In this document: positions 3,793-12,678 of the stretch, piece by piece
Numbering within the stretch: the first letter of the stretch is position 1
Layout of the letters: every line of letters begins with the position of its first letter
Assembly (NCBI GenBank): GCA_001786825.1
Contig: MFTL01000006.1
Coordinates: 1 to 18,512, forward strand
Length of the DNA: 18,512 bases
Source of the DNA: Candidatus Nomurabacteria bacterium RIFCSPHIGHO2_01_FULL_39_9
GTDB taxonomy: Bacteria > Patescibacteriota > Minisyncoccia > Phycocordibacterales > DATEUR01
Direction of reading: 5' to 3'
Program-made: the position numbers and the translations under genes
The notes under the pieces: generated by a model
Told to the model about the DNA's origin: nothing
The model's input: the letters and a program-made list of their open reading frames with translations, nothing else
Database searches by the model: none

Positions 3793-5247
3793 GTGTCTTT
3801 AGAAGAAATTCGTCAAGCTAAATTAAGAAAATTAGAGCTTCTCAAAAAAGAGGGTATTGAAGCTTATCCAATCGAATCTTATTTCGATGTCACGCTCTCT
3901 GAAGTTGTTTCTGACTTTTCTAAATTATCAAAGAAAAAGAAATTATATTTGGTTGGTCGGGTGATGTCGCTACGGCCACAGGGCGGTGTTTTCTTTTTGA
4001 ATTTAAATGATGGCACCGGACTTTTTCAAGCGATGCTAAAAAAAGATGAGACAAAAGACGAGGCTTTCGATTTATTCGGAAAAGTTATCGACATTGGAGA
4101 TTTTATCGAAGTCGAAGGCAGTTTATTTAAAACAAAAAGAGGCGAGAAAACGATTCTTGTTAAAAATTGGAAAATGCTTGCTAAAAGCATTTTGCCTTTG
4201 CCGGAGAAGTGGCATGGTCTCCAAGACGTTGAAGAACGGTTTCGAAAAAGATATTTGGATGCGCTCATGAATCCGGAAGTCAAAGAAAGATTTATTTTAA
4301 GAAGTAAGATTATTTCTCTTTTGCGAGAAATGCTTGATAATGAAAATTATTTGGAAGTTGAAACGCCAGTTCTTCAGCCGATTGCCGGCGGCGCAACAGC
4401 AATGCCTTTCGCGACCCATCATAATGCAATGGATATGGATATGTACTTGCGAATCAGTGATGAGCTTTATTTAAAACGCATGATTATTGCTGGTTTTCCA
4501 AAAGTATATGAGATTTCCAAGGATTTTCGCAATGAAGGTATTGATTGGAGCCATAATCCAGAGTTTACAATGATTGAATTTTATGAGAGTTTCAGTACAG
4601 CCGAAAAGCAAATGGCTTTTGTTGAGAAGATTTTTAAAACAATTGTTAAAAAATTATTGAAGAAAAATCAAATAACTTGGCGTGGTGATACGATAGATTT
4701 CAGTAAAAAATTCGCAGTAATTTCTTATTTTGACCTTATTAAGCGTTATGCGTTAATTGAAAATATCGAAACAATTTCAAAAGAAGAATTGCGGACAAAA
4801 GCGCTTCAACTTGGCGTAACTGTAACGCCTGCTGATTCTTTTGGTAAAATTTTAGATAATATTTATAAAAAGATGTGCCGACCAAAATTAATTCAACCGA
4901 CTTTTATTATTGATTATCCGGCCGATCTTTTGCCGCTTGCGAAAAGAAAAAATAAAGATATTGTTGATGCTTTTCAATTAGTGATTGGCGAGATTGAGCT
5001 CGTCAAAGCTTTTTCGGAGTTGAATGATCCAATTGATCAGCGAGAAAGATTTATGACTCAAGAGAAGATAAAAGAAGCGGGTGAAACTGACGCTCAAAGC
5101 CTTGATGAAGATTTTTTGGAAGCGATGGAATATGGCATGCCACCGGCCGGTGGAGTGGGTATTGGTATTGATCGCTTGGTGATGCTCTTAACTGATACTC
5201 ACAACATAAAGGAGGTCATTTTCTTCCCGACAATGCGGAAGGCATAG
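3793..5247 (+). CDS. lysS: Lysyl-tRNA synthetase, class II
   Basis: Charges tRNA-Lys with lysine. The 484-residue protein has an N-terminal OB-fold anticodon-binding domain (about 50-130, LYLVGRVMSLRPQGGVFFLN) and a class II catalytic domain. Motif 1 lies around 178-193 (NENYLEVETPVLQPIAGG), motif 2 at 244-264 (DFRNEGIDWSHNPEFTMIEF), and motif 3 at 454-467 (GVGIGIDRLVMLLT). SELNDP at 408-413 is also diagnostic. The start is GTG at 3793, two bases after the greA stop, with no visible Shine-Dalgarno, suggesting translational coupling to greA. Length is slightly below the usual ~500, the loss being at the N-terminal extension. All catalytic motifs are intact. Confidence 0.96.
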   Translation: MSLEEIRQAKLRKLELLKKEGIEAYPIESYFDVTLSEVVSDFSKLSKKKKLYLVGRVMSLRPQGGVFFLNLNDGTGLFQAMLKKDETKDEAFDLFGKVIDIGDFIEVEGSLFKTKRGEKTILVKNWKMLAKSILPLPEKWHGLQDVEERFRKRYLDALMNPEVKERFILRSKIISLLREMLDNENYLEVETPVLQPIAGGATAMPFATHHNAMDMDMYLRISDELYLKRMIIAGFPKVYEISKDFRNEGIDWSHNPEFTMIEFYESFSTAEKQMAFVEKIFKTIVKKLLKKNQITWRGDTIDFSKKFAVISYFDLIKRYALIENIETISKEELRTKALQLGVTVTPADSFGKILDNIYKKMCRPKLIQPTFIIDYPADLLPLAKRKNKDIVDAFQLVIGEIELVKAFSELNDPIDQRERFMTQEKIKEAGETDAQSLDEDFLEAMEYGMPPAGGVGIGIDRLVMLLTDTHNIKEVIFFPTMRKA

Positions 5248-5272
5248 AAGTTTTTTATTGTAACTTTGAATT

Positions 5273-5296
5273 AAGCCCTTAAACAAGGGCTTTTTT
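5273..5296 (+). terminator. Intrinsic terminator of greA-lysS
   Basis: An 8-bp perfect stem, AAGCCCTT (5273-5280) with AAGGGCTT (5285-5292), around an AAAC loop, running into a T tract (5291-5296). It lies 25 nt after the lysS stop and isolates the mraZ control region from upstream transcription. Confidence 0.9.
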
Positions 5297-5329
5297 GATT
5301 TATACCTTTAATATCCACCTAAATGAAAC

Positions 5330-5359
5330 TGTGGATAACTCTGTTTGTAATGTGGATAA
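5330..5359 (-). promoter_or_regulatory. Two consensus DnaA boxes, 21 bp apart
   Basis: TGTGGATAA occurs at 5330-5338 and again at 5351-5359. Read on the minus strand each is TTATCCACA, an exact match to the DnaA-box consensus TTATNCACA. The two are in the same orientation exactly 21 bp (two helical turns) apart, and the second overlaps the spacer of the predicted mraZ promoter. DnaA could regulate the promoter, or this could be part of a replication-related site. The TGG cores also coincide with the MraZ-type box series, so these may instead be MraZ sites. Confidence 0.5.
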
Positions 5360-5373
5360 GAGTGGTATATACT
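5345..5373 (+). promoter_or_regulatory. Candidate promoter of the mraZ operon
   Basis: TTGTAA at 5345-5350, a 17-bp spacer, and TATACT at 5368-5373, predicting a start near 5380. A second TATACT at 5375-5380 lacks a good -35. The spacer and the first transcribed bases carry the TGG boxes described separately, so bound protein would be expected to interfere with polymerase. Confidence 0.6.
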
Positions 5374-5398
5374 TTATACTAAGTGGGAAAAAATGGTA
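5353..5398 (+). promoter_or_regulatory. Two pairs of MraZ-type operator boxes
   Basis: TGGAT (5353) and TGGTA (5363) form one pair; TGGGA (5384) and TGGTA (5394) form another. Within each pair two 5-bp boxes are separated by exactly 5 bp, the arrangement described for E. coli MraZ (TGGGN repeats with 5-nt gaps). The pairs are 31 bp apart, and a further TGGAT lies at 5332. They overlap the promoter spacer and the start of the transcript. Autorepression of this operon by MraZ is the natural reading, by analogy. Confidence 0.65.
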
Positions 5399-5467
5399 AC
5401 ACATTATAAAAACATGAAAACAAGATTTTTATTACCGCCTGCCGGACTTCCTCCTGTAGGTTTGTAA
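5393..5467 (+). CDS. Proline-rich leader peptide upstream of mraZ
   Basis: A short ORF inside the mraZ leader. Read from ATG 5414 it gives the 17-residue peptide MKTRFLLPPAGLPPVGL, stop at 5465-5467. An in-frame ATG at 5393 would add seven residues (MVTHYKN) and has GGGA at 5385-5388 upstream. The C-terminal half is a tandem PPAGL-PPVGL repeat whose two copies use different codons (CCG CCT GCC GGA CTT against CCT CCT GTA GGT TTG), which suggests selection on the peptide rather than the DNA. Pro-Pro pairs are known to slow ribosomes lacking EF-P help. The stop codon is one base before the long hairpin that covers the mraZ ribosome-binding site, the layout expected of a regulatory leader peptide. 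Coding status is inferred, not proven. Confidence 0.55.
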   Translation: MVTHYKNMKTRFLLPPAGLPPVGL

Positions 5468-5518
5468 TATTCTCCACTCGTCTCTCTTGCTTTTGCAAGA
5501 GAGACGGAATGGGGAATA
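5468..5518 (+). promoter_or_regulatory. Shine-Dalgarno-sequestering hairpin in the mraZ leader
   Basis: The core is a perfect 12-bp stem, CGTCTCTCTTGC (5479-5490) with GCAAGAGAGACG (5495-5506), around a TTTT loop. Below it, TATTCTCCA (5468-5476) pairs with TGGGGAATA (5510-5518), including one G-U pair. The only Shine-Dalgarno-like sequence before mraZ, GGGGA at 5511-5515, is therefore buried in the lower stem, six bases before the ATG at 5524. No T tract follows, so this is not an intrinsic terminator. Confidence 0.65.
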
Positions 5519-5523
5519 ATTAT

Positions 5524-5958
5524 ATGCTTATTGGAGAATACATTCATAATATTGACGAGAAAAATCGGATTTCGTTTCCGGTTAAATTTCGCAAAGAAAC
5601 TGGGAAAAATTTAGTGGTAGCTCCCGGACTTGATAATTGTCTTTTTGTTTTCACAAAAAAGGAATGGTCACGTATATCTCTTGGCTTGGCAAAATCAAAT
5701 TTATTGCAATCGGATAATAGAAGCTTTGCGAGATTTTTCTTCGGTGGGGCAGTGGAAGTTGTTACTGACAATCTTGGTCGAATTTTAATTCCTGATTTTT
5801 TGAAAGAATATGCCGATCTTAAAAACGAAGTTGTAATCATCGGAGTTCAAAATCGATTGGAGTTATGGAATAAAACGAAGTGGGTGAGTTACAAAAAAGT
5901 AGTGGAAGGGCAGGCGGAAACATTGGCAGAAAAGTTAGGTGATGTAGGTGTGCTCTAA
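5524..5958 (+). CDS. mraZ: Transcriptional regulator MraZ
   Basis: MraZ is an AbrB-like double-barrel DNA-binding protein that controls the dcw cluster from its own promoter. The 144-residue protein begins MLIGEYIHNIDEKNRISFP, the canonical MraZ start, so ATG 5524 is chosen over an in-frame ATG at 5509 that lies inside the leader hairpin. Both internal DxxxR repeats are present, DEKNR (11-15) and DNLGR (82-86), followed by RLELW (111-115). The first repeat has Asn where Gly is usual. E. coli MraZ is 152 residues. The stop is one base before the rsmH ATG. Boxes matching the MraZ operator pattern lie upstream, and the leader carries a peptide and hairpin that may control its translation. Confidence 0.94.
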   Translation: MLIGEYIHNIDEKNRISFPVKFRKETGKNLVVAPGLDNCLFVFTKKEWSRISLGLAKSNLLQSDNRSFARFFFGGAVEVVTDNLGRILIPDFLKEYADLKNEVVIIGVQNRLELWNKTKWVSYKKVVEGQAETLAEKLGDVGVL

Positions 5959-5959
5959 T

Positions 5960-6817
5960 ATGCACAAATCAGTTCTTTTAAATGAAATAATAAGCGAGCT
6001 TGATTTAAAACCCGGGGATATTTTTGTTGACGCAACACTTGGCGCTGGTGGCCACAGCAGAGCTGTTTGTGAGAAATTTCCAAAAGCGAAAATAATCGGA
6101 TTTGATTTAGACGAAGGAGCTTATAAGTTAGCAGAAGAGAAATTAAAAGGTTGTAATACCGAAATTTTTAAGACAAACTTCAAAAATCTTGATTCTTTTG
6201 TAAAAGAGCCCTTTAATGCGATACTTTTTGACCTTGGGCTAAGCTCGATGGAGCTTGAAAGCTCTGGTCGAGGATTTTCATTTTTGCGGAACGAGCCACT
6301 TCTTATGACTTTTGGTGATCCGAAAGAATATCTTTTTACTGCTCGTGACATCGTCAATAGCTGGGATGAAGAAAATATTGTTGCAATTTTGAAAGGCTAC
6401 GGTGAAGAGCCTCGAGCTCAAAAAATAGCCAGAGCAATCATTGAAAGAAGAAAGGGAAAGTCGATCGAGACAACTTTTGATCTGGTGGAAACACTTTCAA
6501 GTGTTTTTCCAAAAAAAGGTCGAATTCATTTTGCGACAAAAACTTTTCAAGCGATTCGCATTGCCGTTAATGATGAATTGAACGTTATTAAAGAAGTATT
6601 ACCTAAAGCTTTTCATCTTTTAAAATCCGGCGGCAAAATTTTTGTGATATCTTTCCATAGTCTTGAAGACAGAATCGTAAAGCGATTTTTCAAAGAACAG
6701 AAAAAAAATGATTTGGCAAAAATTATTACCAAGAAACCGCTTATTGCGACGAGGGAAGAAATTCTTGAAAATCCGCGCGCCCGCAGTGCAAAGTTAAGGA
6801 TTTTAGAAAAAATTTAA
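5960..6817 (+). CDS. rsmH: 16S rRNA (cytosine-N4) methyltransferase RsmH (MraW)
   Basis: Methylates N4 of C1402 in the decoding centre of 16S rRNA using S-adenosylmethionine. The 285-residue protein starts MHKSVLLNEI, the standard opening, so ATG 5960 is preferred over an in-frame GTG at 5948. The SAM-binding loop is DATLGAGGHS (24-33), followed by GFDLDEGAY (47-55), FDLGLSSMELESSGRGFSF (90-108), ATKTFQAIRIAVNDEL (192-207), SFHSLEDRIVKRFF (231-244) and NPRARSAKLR (271-280). It is somewhat shorter than E. coli RsmH (313). The start codon is one base after the mraZ stop. After the gene comes a 31-bp, almost purely A/T gap before ftsL. Confidence 0.96.
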   Translation: MHKSVLLNEIISELDLKPGDIFVDATLGAGGHSRAVCEKFPKAKIIGFDLDEGAYKLAEEKLKGCNTEIFKTNFKNLDSFVKEPFNAILFDLGLSSMELESSGRGFSFLRNEPLLMTFGDPKEYLFTARDIVNSWDEENIVAILKGYGEEPRAQKIARAIIERRKGKSIETTFDLVETLSSVFPKKGRIHFATKTFQAIRIAVNDELNVIKEVLPKAFHLLKSGGKIFVISFHSLEDRIVKRFFKEQKKNDLAKIITKKPLIATREEILENPRARSAKLRILEKI

Positions 6818-8836: not shown

Positions 8837-10031
8837 AAAAATTTTAACTTTCGTTTTTATTCTTCAAGCTAAATTAATTTTAGCCAAGTATAAGCCGAAA
8901 ATTATTGTAGTTACCGGGAGCGTCGGCAAGACCTCGGCTAAAAGCGCGCTCTATAATGTTTTGCGCCAGTTTGATTCAGTTAGGAAAAATATTACTAAAG
9001 GTAATAGCTATCAAATCGCGCTAACAATTATTGGCGCTAGCGACAAATGGTTCAAATCACTCATTAAAGGTTTCTTCATTTTAATTTTCAAAGAAAAATA
9101 TCCGCATTATCTTATTTTGGAAATTGCCTGTCGCCGACCCGGGGAATTAGAAGAAATTTTGCCGTGGCTGCCGATTGATTTTGCAATAGTCACTTATTTT
9201 GGAATGGTGCCGCCCCATATTGAATTTTTTGATTCCCGCAAACATTTAATTGAAGAAAAATTAAAAATTCTACAAAATCTTAAAAAAGGCGGAACTGTTA
9301 TTTTAAATGCCGATAGTCCGGATTTTAATTTTATAAAAGAAAAAATTAGAGCTCAAATAGTGACATTTGGTTTTGATGCTGGCGATGTGAGAGGCGGTAA
9401 TTTACAAATTATTTATGAAAGTAATTTACCAACAGGTATTAATTTTAGAATTGATTATGGTGGCAATAGCGTGCCGGTAAATATCAAAGGTGCATTAGGC
9501 CGTGCTCATGTTTACGCTTATTTGGCAGCGCTTGCTTTTGCTTATAAAAATAATTTTAATATGGTTCTGGCGAGTCAAAGCGCGGCAAATTATGACGCGC
9601 CTTGGGGGAGAATGAAGCTCTTGGCAGGGCTCAAAGATTCTTTAATTATCGATGATTCGTATAATTCTTCACCGTCGGCATTAGAGGAGGCAATCACCGC
9701 TTTATCTGAAATTAAAACAACCGGCCGGAAAATTGCAGTCTTGGGCGATATGTTAGAGCTTGGTCGTGAAAGCCATGATGTTCACATAAGACTTGGCGAA
9801 CTGGCAGGGAAGACTATCGACTTTTTAATTACCGTCGGTTCTCGAGCGCGAGGAATATCCCTTGGCGCTAGTGTTAAATTAAAATCTTCACAAATTATGC
9901 AATTTGAAAAAAATGATGAAGTAATTGAATATCTTAAAAATCTAATCAAACCGGGCGATTTGATTTTGGTTAAAGGCTCACGCGCGATGCGTTTAGAAGA
10001 AGTGGTTAAAATTCTTTCGAAAGCTCCTTAA
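8814..10031 (+). CDS. murF: MurF-type Mur ligase lacking the N-terminal substrate domain
   Basis: Predicted UDP-MurNAc-tripeptide:D-Ala-D-Ala ligase, the last cytoplasmic step in building the pentapeptide precursor. The ATP site is VTGSVGKTSAKS (33-44). Other Mur ligase signatures are EIACRRPGELEE (103-114), VTYFGMVPPHIEFF (126-139), DDSYNSSPSALEEAI (280-294), LGDMLELG (310-317) and KGSRAMRLEE (387-396); DDSYNSSP and GDMLELG are specific to MurF. The protein has 405 residues against about 450. The usual N-terminal Rossmann-like domain binding the UDP-sugar is absent and replaced by about 28 residues with a hydrophobic helix (IAKKILTFVFILQAKLILAKY). ATG 8814 overlaps ftsI by 23 bases; no later start is convincing. 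The 3' end overlaps the opposing surface-protein gene by 26 bp. Confidence 0.88.
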   Translation: MKFRLIAKKILTFVFILQAKLILAKYKPKIIVVTGSVGKTSAKSALYNVLRQFDSVRKNITKGNSYQIALTIIGASDKWFKSLIKGFFILIFKEKYPHYLILEIACRRPGELEEILPWLPIDFAIVTYFGMVPPHIEFFDSRKHLIEEKLKILQNLKKGGTVILNADSPDFNFIKEKIRAQIVTFGFDAGDVRGGNLQIIYESNLPTGINFRIDYGGNSVPVNIKGALGRAHVYAYLAALAFAYKNNFNMVLASQSAANYDAPWGRMKLLAGLKDSLIIDDSYNSSPSALEEAITALSEIKTTGRKIAVLGDMLELGRESHDVHIRLGELAGKTIDFLITVGSRARGISLGASVKLKSSQIMQFEKNDEVIEYLKNLIKPGDLILVKGSRAMRLEEVVKILSKAP

Positions 10032-12678
10032 TTTTCGCTCGTGTTTTGGGACCAATATAGCCGTAGCCGCGATCACCGGGTTTGGCAATATCGTATTTAA
10101 CTTGGAATTTTTTAACAGCTTCTTTTGTTTGATAGCCGTAGCGCTTTGTTTCTTTGCCGGGTGAACCGGGGCCTGTCTTTGCAACAGCAATGCCAATAGT
10201 ATTGAAGAATTTTTGAATTTCTTTAACCTCTTGACTTACTTGGCCGAAACCAATACCACGATTGATTGTAGTTAAAACAGTTTTATTTGGAGTGGTCGAA
10301 ACAGCTGAATTGTTTGTTAGAGTGGCGGTTGTAATTGTTCCTGATTGAGCTAAATAAGGGAATGTCGCGGTTGTAGTGTTTAGGGTTAATGGATTATTTA
10401 TTGTGTTTGTAGTTGTTGTAAGAGAAGATGTAACAGGGAAAATTGATGTCGTTGAAATTGTAGAAGTTGTCGAATTTGATAGAGGCAAAATAATTGCGCT
10501 ACCACCGCCTCCTCCACCACTTGAAGTTGTGGTAATTGGAGCAGGTTCGGGCGTTGGTGTTGGTTCAAGCGTAGGTTCTGGCGCTGGTTCAGGTGTTGGT
10601 GCAGGCGTAGGCTCTGGCGTTGGCGTCGGATTTGGATCTGATGGCGGCGGAGTTGATTCGTTTGTCTCCATAAAACCCGGGTCGGCTGAATCAACAGGCA
10701 AGATATAAAGACTGCCCGGTTCGAGATCGCGTGCCTTCTCCCATGTGCCTAGACATGTGCTTGTCGTAAAATCCCAATCTTTACATTTCATAAGCGTATT
10801 GCCTTTAGCTTCAATTTCAAATTCGGAATTGGTGCCAAGACCAGTTGGATCAATAGCAAAACTCTGCACAGCAAGAGGATTGTCAGTTAAGACATTTTCT
10901 TCAACTCGAAGGTCGTTGTTTGTATTTTCTGTGTGATTTTTAACTATAATCTTTTTTATAATATTTGGATTTGTCGGAACAATTTCAATATCGTCAGCTA
11001 CTTTTGTTTCGGTGTAATTAAGTAGAGCATTTTCTTTATCAAGCAGGGCAATTTGTTTCTTTGATTCAAAAAGCTCAGAAGCAGTATTTCTTTTTTCAAT
11101 ATTAAAACTATAATTTTCATTTTTAACTAAGTCTTTCTTTTTTATATATTTTCCCTTACAAATCTGATTACCAAAATCAAAATCATTGCATTCGAACAGA
11201 TCATTACCAACAGCTGTCGCTTCAATATCTGCCGACTTTGCAACTGTTTCTGATTGAAATTCAATAGTTTTTCTATCAGGGTTTGTTTCAGTGTTTTCTT
11301 CAGTATTTATTATAATTTCATCTAATTGTTCACCGGTTTCCGCGTCAAAATAAGTGATTATTTTGTGAGGATTCATGTCAATCAGTTGGACCGTGATGAT
11401 AGTTTCAAAAGGATTTTGAAGAATGCTCTGGATTGAAGGAATCACTTCAAGTCTTTGATCTAAAACCAAAAAACCGTCTTTTGCTTGGCCATAAACAGAT
11501 TGACCGGGCGAAGAGGAGACAAGCTCATATTCTTCATTCACAACTAAATTTTTTTCTTTTTTCCAACGTCGGCAAATGCCCTCTGTTTGATTATATTCGA
11601 GACAAGTGAGCAGCTTGGGGCTTAGGGCAACATCAGTGACCTTAACTTCTTCAGCGACAAGTGCGGTTGTGTCGATAAAAATTTCTTTTTTAGTGACATT
11701 GTTTTCTTCTCTGTGCACGACTTCAATGATGACATCATTATTCAGACTTTCTGTGGAAACGTTGATAACGTTAACTGCTGGCACAGGAAGCGGCGGCGCA
11801 TTTTCAACAACGGGTGTCGCAACTGGAACGAGTTTAACTGATGTTTCGGTCTCTGAAGATTGTTCTTCAAAATCAAGCAGTTCGCTTTTTTTGTTCAAAG
11901 CGTTAACGCGTCGGCTTGATTCAGCGTAGCCCGGATCAGCAGGCGTAAATTCTATTGTGTATTCAGAGCCAGGTACGATATTTGCAAGTTTGATCCAGCG
12001 GCCAGTACATGTTTGGTTGGTGTAATCCCAAAGAGCGCATTTAAAAAGATCTTTACCTTCAGCAGCTTTTTTAAAGCGACCTTTTGTGAAAGCAAGACCT
12101 GTTACATCACCCAAAGCAAATTTTCTATTCCAATGACCACTTGCCGGAATTTCATCAACTGGAATATCAATGATTCCTTCCTCGGAAATACTTATGTTAT
12201 CTAGCTCAAGACTTGAGATCGGCGCATCGGTAAAAGAAATTTGTATTTTTCGTGCATCGCTTCTTGGGCCACGAAACGTAAGACCGGCTCTTAAATTTCC
12301 TCTAGCCAGACTGCCACCTTGCGCGTCTAAAATATCAACGGTGCCTTGTAAGCCACTACCGCTTGCTTTTTTACTGTCTACTTGCACGAAATTTGGTTGG
12401 GCTTGCACGGTGTGAACATACGAAAAAGAAAAAACTAGGAATGATAAAATCATCAATGCAAAAACACCCCAATGGACATGACTCCGATTAGGGTGATGAT
12501 GCCAAGCACGATACCAGGCCGCATTATTATGAAGATAAGAGTGAGCATGGCCTATAATGGGAATTCCGTGATTATTATGACAATTAGTGGAGTCTAATTC
12601 GCAGATATATTCAGCTGAACAAGAATCAGAAACCTTGCATAAATAGAGGCGAATGCGATTTATGAATCTCTTAATCAT
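10006..12678 (-). CDS. Large exported surface protein with C-x9-C modules and C-terminal peptidoglycan-binding domain
   Basis: An 890-residue protein of unknown specific function, probably held at the cell surface. Residues 1-70 are unusual: four Cys (14, 20, 26, 33) and ten His. A hydrophobic segment follows (about 71-90) with a possible signal cleavage after VQA (91-93). The exported part has four related modules (about 210-254, 354-398, 492-537, 627-671), each with C-x9-C then an aromatic; modules 1 and 4 share LxPGSxY and ADPGaxE. A Pro/Thr/Glu-rich linker (about 672-712), a poly-Gly run and a Ser/Thr-rich stretch lead to a PG_binding_1-like domain (about 806-888; GSPGKE, AVKKFQVKYDIAKPGDRGYGYIGPKTRAKI) of a form common in Parcubacteria. 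The promoter gives an apparently leaderless mRNA. Its end overlaps murF and no terminator is visible. Confidence 0.88.
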   Translation of the reverse strand: MIKRFINRIRLYLCKVSDSCSAEYICELDSTNCHNNHGIPIIGHAHSYLHNNAAWYRAWHHHPNRSHVHWGVFALMILSFLVFSFSYVHTVQAQPNFVQVDSKKASGSGLQGTVDILDAQGGSLARGNLRAGLTFRGPRSDARKIQISFTDAPISSLELDNISISEEGIIDIPVDEIPASGHWNRKFALGDVTGLAFTKGRFKKAAEGKDLFKCALWDYTNQTCTGRWIKLANIVPGSEYTIEFTPADPGYAESSRRVNALNKKSELLDFEEQSSETETSVKLVPVATPVVENAPPLPVPAVNVINVSTESLNNDVIIEVVHREENNVTKKEIFIDTTALVAEEVKVTDVALSPKLLTCLEYNQTEGICRRWKKEKNLVVNEEYELVSSSPGQSVYGQAKDGFLVLDQRLEVIPSIQSILQNPFETIITVQLIDMNPHKIITYFDAETGEQLDEIIINTEENTETNPDRKTIEFQSETVAKSADIEATAVGNDLFECNDFDFGNQICKGKYIKKKDLVKNENYSFNIEKRNTASELFESKKQIALLDKENALLNYTETKVADDIEIVPTNPNIIKKIIVKNHTENTNNDLRVEENVLTDNPLAVQSFAIDPTGLGTNSEFEIEAKGNTLMKCKDWDFTTSTCLGTWEKARDLEPGSLYILPVDSADPGFMETNESTPPPSDPNPTPTPEPTPAPTPEPAPEPTLEPTPTPEPAPITTTSSGGGGGGSAIILPLSNSTTSTISTTSIFPVTSSLTTTTNTINNPLTLNTTTATFPYLAQSGTITTATLTNNSAVSTTPNKTVLTTINRGIGFGQVSQEVKEIQKFFNTIGIAVAKTGPGSPGKETKRYGYQTKEAVKKFQVKYDIAKPGDRGYGYIGPKTRAKIKELSKEF
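10540..10660 (-). repeat. Pro/Thr/Glu/Ala-rich low-complexity linker repeat
   Basis: About 120 bp of near-repeats (GGTTCTGGCGTTGG-like units on the plus strand) encode alternating TPEPTPAPEP-type sequence, a cell-wall-spanning or extended linker. The opposite strand shows a Gly/Val-rich frame that is only a shadow. Unit number could vary by recombination or slippage. Confidence 0.75.
10665..12051 (-). repeat. Four divergent copies of a C-x9-C surface module
   Basis: Protein-level repeats at about 11917-12051, 11485-11620, 11065-11204 and 10667-10798. Each starts with hydrophobic-hydrophobic-K/T/E-Cys, places a second Cys after nine residues (KCALWDYTNQTC, TCLEYNQTEGIC, ECNDFDFGNQIC, KCKDWDFTTSTC), then W or Y two or three residues on, and a Tyr-containing strand. 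Copies 1 and 4 are closest. The two cysteines could form one disulfide per module after export. Confidence 0.7.

Follow-up and report, generated by a model that had tools for sequence, protein, structure and literature searches.

The mraZ start codon in this genome is held in a long predicted hairpin, the left strand of which includes the end of a short leader ORF (sORF), a layout that suggests opening of mraZ by ribosomes on the leader. The best reading, held tentatively and based on modelled folds, is that mraZ translation is coupled to translation of this mini-ORF, and a function in mraZ control is plausible under that model. An earlier reading of the sequence alone had proposed a peptide-controlled attenuator at this place and is partly supported: the finding is real and structurally extreme, but it would amount to masking of a start codon rather than of a Shine-Dalgarno (SD) sequence, and to opening by termination rather than by pausing on Pro-Pro codons. 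As far as can be seen, the sORF/hairpin arrangement is private to the lineage.

The window (the whole stretch of DNA that was analysed, 18,512 nucleotides) consists of contig bases 1-18512 of a 408 kb genome assembly that is 62% complete. Among the genomes compared there is no second one from the same genus or family, and no close relative of the source. MraZ is a widely conserved bacterial regulator, the input of which is, to our knowledge, unclear; it was found in 372 of 397 genomes of the order. Gene order at the locus is greA, lysS, mraZ, rsmH, a 94-aa ORF, a penicillin-binding transpeptidase-like gene and a murF-like gene, which by gene content is a reduced dcw cluster. The 94-aa ORF 3' of rsmH was without a family match. 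Elsewhere in the window, an 890-aa ORF with repeats is present on the minus strand (10006-12678), with a C-terminus that resembles a peptidoglycan-binding domain by eye. The features of the mraZ region are listed in Table 1.

Table 1. Features of the mraZ leader region and adjoining genes (window coordinates).
Feature	Position	Strand	Basis
Terminator-like hairpin after lysS	5273..5292	+	terminator scan
DnaA-box-like TGTGGATAA, 53 bp before MraZ box 3	5330..5338	+	sequence; place kept in relatives
Sigma-70-like promoter match, TTGTAA-17-TATACT	5345..5373	+	promoter scan
Second DnaA-box-like TGTGGATAA, overlapping MraZ box 1	5351..5359	+	sequence
Putative MraZ operator: boxes at 5352, 5362, 5383 (GTGG) and 5393 (ATGG), spacing 10-21-10	5352..5396	+	sequence
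Leader sORF, MKTRFLLPPAGLPPVGL and stop, 17 codons	5414..5467	+	sequence; not found in relatives inspected
Hairpin left strand: last sORF codons, stop, TATTCTCCA, upper stem	5456..5490	+	predicted fold
Hairpin right strand, with GGGGAATA and mraZ AUG	5495..5531	+	predicted fold
mraZ, 144 aa	5524..5958	+	TIGR00242, 127.4 bits
rsmH/mraW, next operon gene	5960..6817	+	TIGR00006

The transcript would be expected to start around 5380, inside the putative MraZ operator, as judged from the promoter match. The hairpin after lysS would split transcription of mraZ from that of lysS. Promoter match and operator both lie upstream of the sORF ATG, so the sORF probably belongs to the mraZ transcript. A promoter-like match at 5492-5520 was set aside because by its position it would start transcription past the mraZ AUG. 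The promoter -10 sits between both box pairs, likewise in relatives. A GTGG-N6-GTGG-like box pair was present in 114 of 115 mraZ entries (2 duplicates counted in), and a double arrangement, with 21 bp from one box pair to the next and the -10 in between, in 40 (strict form) or 48 (relaxed form) of the 115 order entries. Assignment of the boxes to MraZ is by analogy with the operators of dcw clusters in E. coli and Mollicutes, described as mraZ promoter repeats bound by MraZ (PMC8475190). Repeats at the mraZ promoter, here GTGG boxes, are common to both; the double arrangement seen in many loci of the order is a difference. Upstream of the operator, an exact match to the DnaA-box-like sequence TTATCCACA/TGTGGATAA, a putative DnaA site, occurs within 450 nt upstream of mraZ in 84 of 116 loci, this one included, where 0.85 were expected from shuffles; some 200 permuted 9-mers used as a control reached 10 loci at best and 0.65 on average. 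Most of these DnaA-like boxes (79 of 90, in 79 loci) lie at locked, orientation-dependent distances from MraZ box 3, namely -51 to -55, -55 to -58 or -63 to -68. If DnaA binds the box, division would be tied to replication in one promoter.

The hairpin was predicted to consist of a lower stem, in which TATTCTCCA (5468-5476) lies opposite TGGGGAATA (5510-5518), and atop it an upper stem, CGTCTCTCTTGC-TTTT-GCAAGAGAGACG (5479-5506). The fold of 5384-5545 reaches -56.6 kcal/mol (z -7.1) and was equalled by 0 of 200 shuffles, in energies that leave co-transcriptional folding out of account. The two strands (5456-5490 and 5495-5531) are joined by 33 predicted pairs, in which the final codons of the sORF and all but one base of the mraZ AUG take part. 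A hairpin directly after the sORF stop, as first described, is thus present and far stronger than in shuffles, but it is longer than the 5468-5518 given to it. Among 112 folded mraZ leaders of the order, this one has the least accessible start region (0.18 unpaired from -20 to +10, against a median of 0.53) and, at -6.6, the lowest z-score of the fold. For the region around the sORF start (5400-5429) the unpaired value is 0.49, close to the 0.53 median of mraZ starts. The mraZ AUG itself is 0.37 unpaired in the free fold, so that occlusion is incomplete, which counts against the coupling reading. The left arm can alternatively pair with mraZ codons at 5532-5540, 7 kcal/mol less well. No Rfam family reached the gathering threshold in the window; matches in the stretch 5250-5650 were weak and below threshold, and the loci of 17 relatives gave only weak sub-threshold matches. 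A stem of this length without a terminator-type U tract, and with no terminator called in the scan, would also suit a role on the mRNA, either as an RNase III-type processing site or as an element that stabilises the division operon mRNA at its 5' end. This is considered unlikely; nothing specific for cleavage was seen, and the leader hairpins of relatives differ in sequence.

The hairpin had been thought to hide the only SD sequence of mraZ, and this part of the sequence-only reading does not hold. The 3' end of the organism's own 16S rRNA (...GCTGCTCGTGGAAAAAATTCTAAC) is without CCTCC, and CCTCC was found within 75 bases of the 16S anchor in none of the 30 order genomes read, i.e. the own genome and 29 others (118 genomes were searched, 82 had the exact anchor, and 30 of the 82 loci were read). 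An SD-like core at -18 to -4 was missing from 107 of 117 mraZ starts, the GGGG of the present leader being among the 10 with some core. With a 16S rRNA that has no anti-SD, there is no SD sequence for the hairpin to hide, and it is the start codon that would be masked instead. Translation in the order seems, from these 16S ends, to work without an anti-SD, and initiation control would then have to act through start-codon accessibility. In the portion of the literature consulted, no published report of a missing anti-SD was met for this group, which is not proof of absence in print. Also, the own 16S gene is apparently split by an insert containing an ORF (L129, 2736-3170) that resembles a LAGLIDADG homing endonuclease.

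The effect of a ribosome on the fold was calculated with an assumed footprint of 15 nt on either side of the first base of the P-site codon. With the sORF stop in the A site, the ribosome reaches 5477; the AUG rises from 0.37 to 0.69 unpaired and the GGGGA of the lower stem from 0.01 to 0.41. Opening of the lower stem was limited to ribosomes that have GGT or TTG as the P-site codon (0.38 and 0.41). A ribosome with the second Pro-Pro in the P site reaches 5468, which opens the outer stem and raises the AUG from 0.37 to 0.67, with the lower stem shut (GGGGA 0.03 unpaired). With the first Pro-Pro the AUG is unaffected (0.36). As for the earlier idea that a paused ribosome frees the mraZ initiation region, the masked folds release both AUG and lower stem at the stop codon, and the AUG only at the second Pro-Pro. 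Since the lower stem stays shut there, a strong stall on Pro-Pro would leave a partly open start, and termination would give the fuller opening. Going by these masked folds, the layout is explained by simple coupling, and no arrest has to be assumed.

The coupling reading would run as follows. From its start within the operator the mraZ mRNA would carry a leader of about 144 nt. Ribosomes without an anti-SD would start on accessible, AT-rich AUGs, of which the sORF AUG would be one, and the mraZ AUG would be inaccessible because the last sORF codons and the bases after the stop pair with it and its surroundings. A ribosome finishing the sORF would cover approximately 5447-5477 and so open the outer and lower stems, and the upper stem would remain, keeping the sORF stop close to the mraZ start. 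A new 30S subunit, or the same one, would then begin mraZ, and the MraZ so made would repress the upstream operator. The Pro-Pro repeats may tune the arrival of ribosomes and need not be the switch. What the analysis shows are the sequences, the boxes, the predicted fold, the missing anti-SD and the unusual occlusion; the transcript start, sORF translation, coupling and MraZ repression we infer. If the leader ORF does gate mraZ translation, dcw expression would answer to translation besides MraZ itself. A bolder form is improbable in our estimate: that no MraZ is made unless a ribosome translates a private leader ORF, the last codons of which mask the AUG, with the LPPxG repeat setting ribosome dwell, so that mraZ reads Pro-Pro speed (EF-P, proline).

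The short ORF with its tandem Pro-Pro repeat and its stop (TAA, 5465-5467) can be read directly from the sequence, just as first reported. An alternative in-frame start, ATG at 5393 inside MraZ box 4, would give 24 aa. Upstream of its start the mraZ frame stays open as far as about 5410 (182 aa); a -1 frameshift that would lead ribosomes on the sORF into this frame was dropped by eye, no standard slippery heptamer being seen. The sORF is unremarkable in length, as a closed ATG ORF of at least 17 aa was found in 4080 of 20000 shuffled leaders. The peptide is unusual. Tandem LPPAG-LPPVG has its sole place among the 22,015 six-frame positions of the window here (two overlapping matches), and when the sORF was shuffled 50000 times by nucleotide and 50000 times by codon, a repeat of this type arose 18 and 38 times, statistics that are post hoc, from a single sequence in which the repeat had already been noticed. 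If one repeat arose by duplication of the other, they have come to differ at 6 of 15 bases, mostly synonymously; with 6 of 15 bases changed at random, 4 or more of the 5 residues stayed the same in about 0.9% of trials (908 and 949 of 100000), so the pattern is mildly unlikely for an unconstrained duplication, with the same post hoc character.

These properties favour the model first proposed, in which a nascent-peptide or Pro-Pro stall exposes mraZ in the manner of ermC, as do the opening of the AUG in silico by the second Pro-Pro ribosome and a likely EF-P gene in the genome (E 1e-52; 175.8 bits, under the curated cut-off of 185.8). The model is nevertheless very unlikely: there is no anti-SD, the second Pro-Pro ribosome leaves the lower stem shut, and PPA and PPV are weak EF-P-dependent pause motifs. 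Conservation of the amino acids, which had been argued from the differing codons of the repeats, was not borne out at the level of the order. The codon pattern of the tandem peptide is found in 1 of 397 order genomes, the own one, and in 0 of the 396 others, and the peptide is in no sORF of the other mraZ leaders inspected.

Leaders were compared at 113 distinct loci, a sample biased towards more similar MraZ: the best 30 including the own locus, 80 that are about the next-best by MraZ score (one contig-edge locus skipped and one out of order), and 3 of 5 with a related MraZ in a named collection, from Parcubacteria and other Patescibacteria, the other 2 being duplicates. To these were later added 4 loci of the family to which one near relative belongs, with one of the 4 truncated at a contig edge. 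Between the last box pair and mraZ lie 11 to 338 nt across relatives, and the hairpins there are unrelated in sequence. Of 112 folded leaders, 60 are short (< 70 nt) and need no such device, which counts against coupling; 27 (28 of 113 in all) have a micro-ORF, with a median z of -0.4; and 25 are long without a micro-ORF, with a median z of -2.2 and 10 at z ≤ -3. The own leader is the extreme of the last style. Five of the 13 strongly folded leaders (z ≤ -3) are without an ATG sORF of at least 8 aa, and this again counts against coupling. L118, the locus with the most similar MraZ (70%), has 50 nt of leader after the box pair and an open start (0.50); the starts of two further loci of that family are open too (0.52 and 0.72), and all three count against coupling as well. 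The next-lowest accessibilities belong to L007 and L005, which are of the same family as L118 and have unrelated leader sequences. In the upstream regions of the relatives inspected the peptide was not found, and the leaders differ. Searched as DNA, the leader matched 26 other order genomes at E ≤ 0.01, the listed pieces being 18-43 bases and none a whole leader. Without a close relative, comparative support for the sORF or the stem is nil, a further point against coupling.

The chief rival to coupling is that the hairpin is a lineage-specific palindrome, inserted or formed by chance, and the sORF a chance frame, so that the leader would at most lower mraZ by a fixed amount. This is a serious possibility, if short of an even chance. 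It would account for the expected length of the sORF, for a peptide seen in no other leader inspected, for the short open leader of the most similar MraZ and for the unrelated hairpins of relatives, and one two-hairpin element of mraZ leaders in the order is a dispersed multicopy sequence. It fits less well with a hairpin whose base lies exactly at the stop codon and whose partner strand lies over the AUG, or with the unusual tandem peptide. Nor was a second copy of the own hairpin found at E 0.001 in the 62% complete assembly, and the two-hairpin element (searched as GGRCTAAAAC-hp-GTTCGYCCGA-hp-TTTAGG) gave 0 matches in the own genome under strict filters with 12 of 782 candidates scored.

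Coupling remains the preferred reading and has known counterparts. In ermC-type translational attenuators, a short leader ORF lies upstream of a stem that masks the initiation region of the next gene. The predicted layout of the present leader is alike; in contrast, the present case has neither an anti-SD nor a drug or a known stall, a second, alternative hairpin was not found, and Pro-Pro is too far upstream to open the lower stem. In translationally coupled operon genes, e.g. those of ribosomal protein operons, the terminating upstream ribosome opens the next gene. In both, the stem that covers the start of the following gene, here a predicted one, has a stop codon at its base, whereas the upstream ORF is here a leader of 17-24 aa, part of whose coding strand is the masking strand. 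The sequence-only reading knew of no described mraZ leader of this kind, which has to be corrected. The dcw 5' leader of R. sphaeroides, between the mraZ promoter and mraZ, is long and structured, contains an sORF and yields the sRNA UpsM (PMC5089854). The sORF is reported to occur in R. sphaeroides species only, and a lacZ fusion showed weak translation of it; the leader also holds a terminator, which most transcription fails to pass (PMC5089854). A long structured mraZ leader with an sORF is common to both; unlike that of R. sphaeroides, the present leader has no terminator that was found and its stem covers the mraZ start itself. A terminator or UpsM-type transcription attenuator was rejected here, as the only terminator-like site in 5240-5560 is the one after lysS, before the promoter. 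A leader in which the end of the coding sequence hides the start of the following gene, in a lineage without an anti-SD, was not met in the portion of the literature searched.

A conserved micro-protein of 40-55 aa (MKI.K..YKV..KGK.......REKVLV.KK) lies between operator and mraZ in 28 of 113 leaders, e.g. L024, L044, L057 and L066, where it carries no annotation. The 28 micro-ORFs were picked by eye, and a profile made from them recovers those 28 and no further one. By coordinates, 22 of the 28 stop within -24 to +31 of the mraZ start, and this suggests that coupling recurs at mraZ. The mraZ leaders of the order resemble a set of natural solutions, some being bare, some having a micro-ORF and some a hairpin. 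Four members of the micro-protein family gave no significant Pfam match. An origin as half of MraZ was rejected (profile comparison probability 0.1%), and so was the present sORF as a remnant of the family (-1.3 bits, equalled by 161 of 386 scored shuffles out of 500 made).

The two-hairpin element (GGRCTAAAACA..TGTTCGYCCGA..TTTAGG) is near-palindromic. Of 397 genomes, 73 contain it, at up to 12 matches per genome, and these numbers per genome are lower bounds because only 12 candidates were scored in each. It is present in the mraZ leaders L021, L027, L105 and L120 and was also seen at L161-L180; in 4 of 17 loci (L166, L171, L173 and L180) it adjoins the 5' end of a tRNA or tmRNA gene. As a dispersed multicopy repeat, it was ruled out as an mraZ riboswitch.

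Other leaders showed further peculiarities. In L019, L079 and L095 a short frame that lies upstream of mraZ begins with a further copy of the mraZ start (MLIGEY...), as if the 5' end of the gene had been duplicated, and in L019 and L079 a palindrome-like sequence follows the copy by eye. In L015 and L023, which are of one family, the hairpin stem is changed and the flanks are nearly identical by eye (GTATACGAA ... TTTCGTAGACA). Short hairpins just after MraZ box 4, with GTGG in or beside the loop, were seen by eye in L008, L046 and L127 (e.g. ATTAATTTG-TGTGG-CCAAATTAAT), and look like an extra MraZ box placed in a stem-loop.
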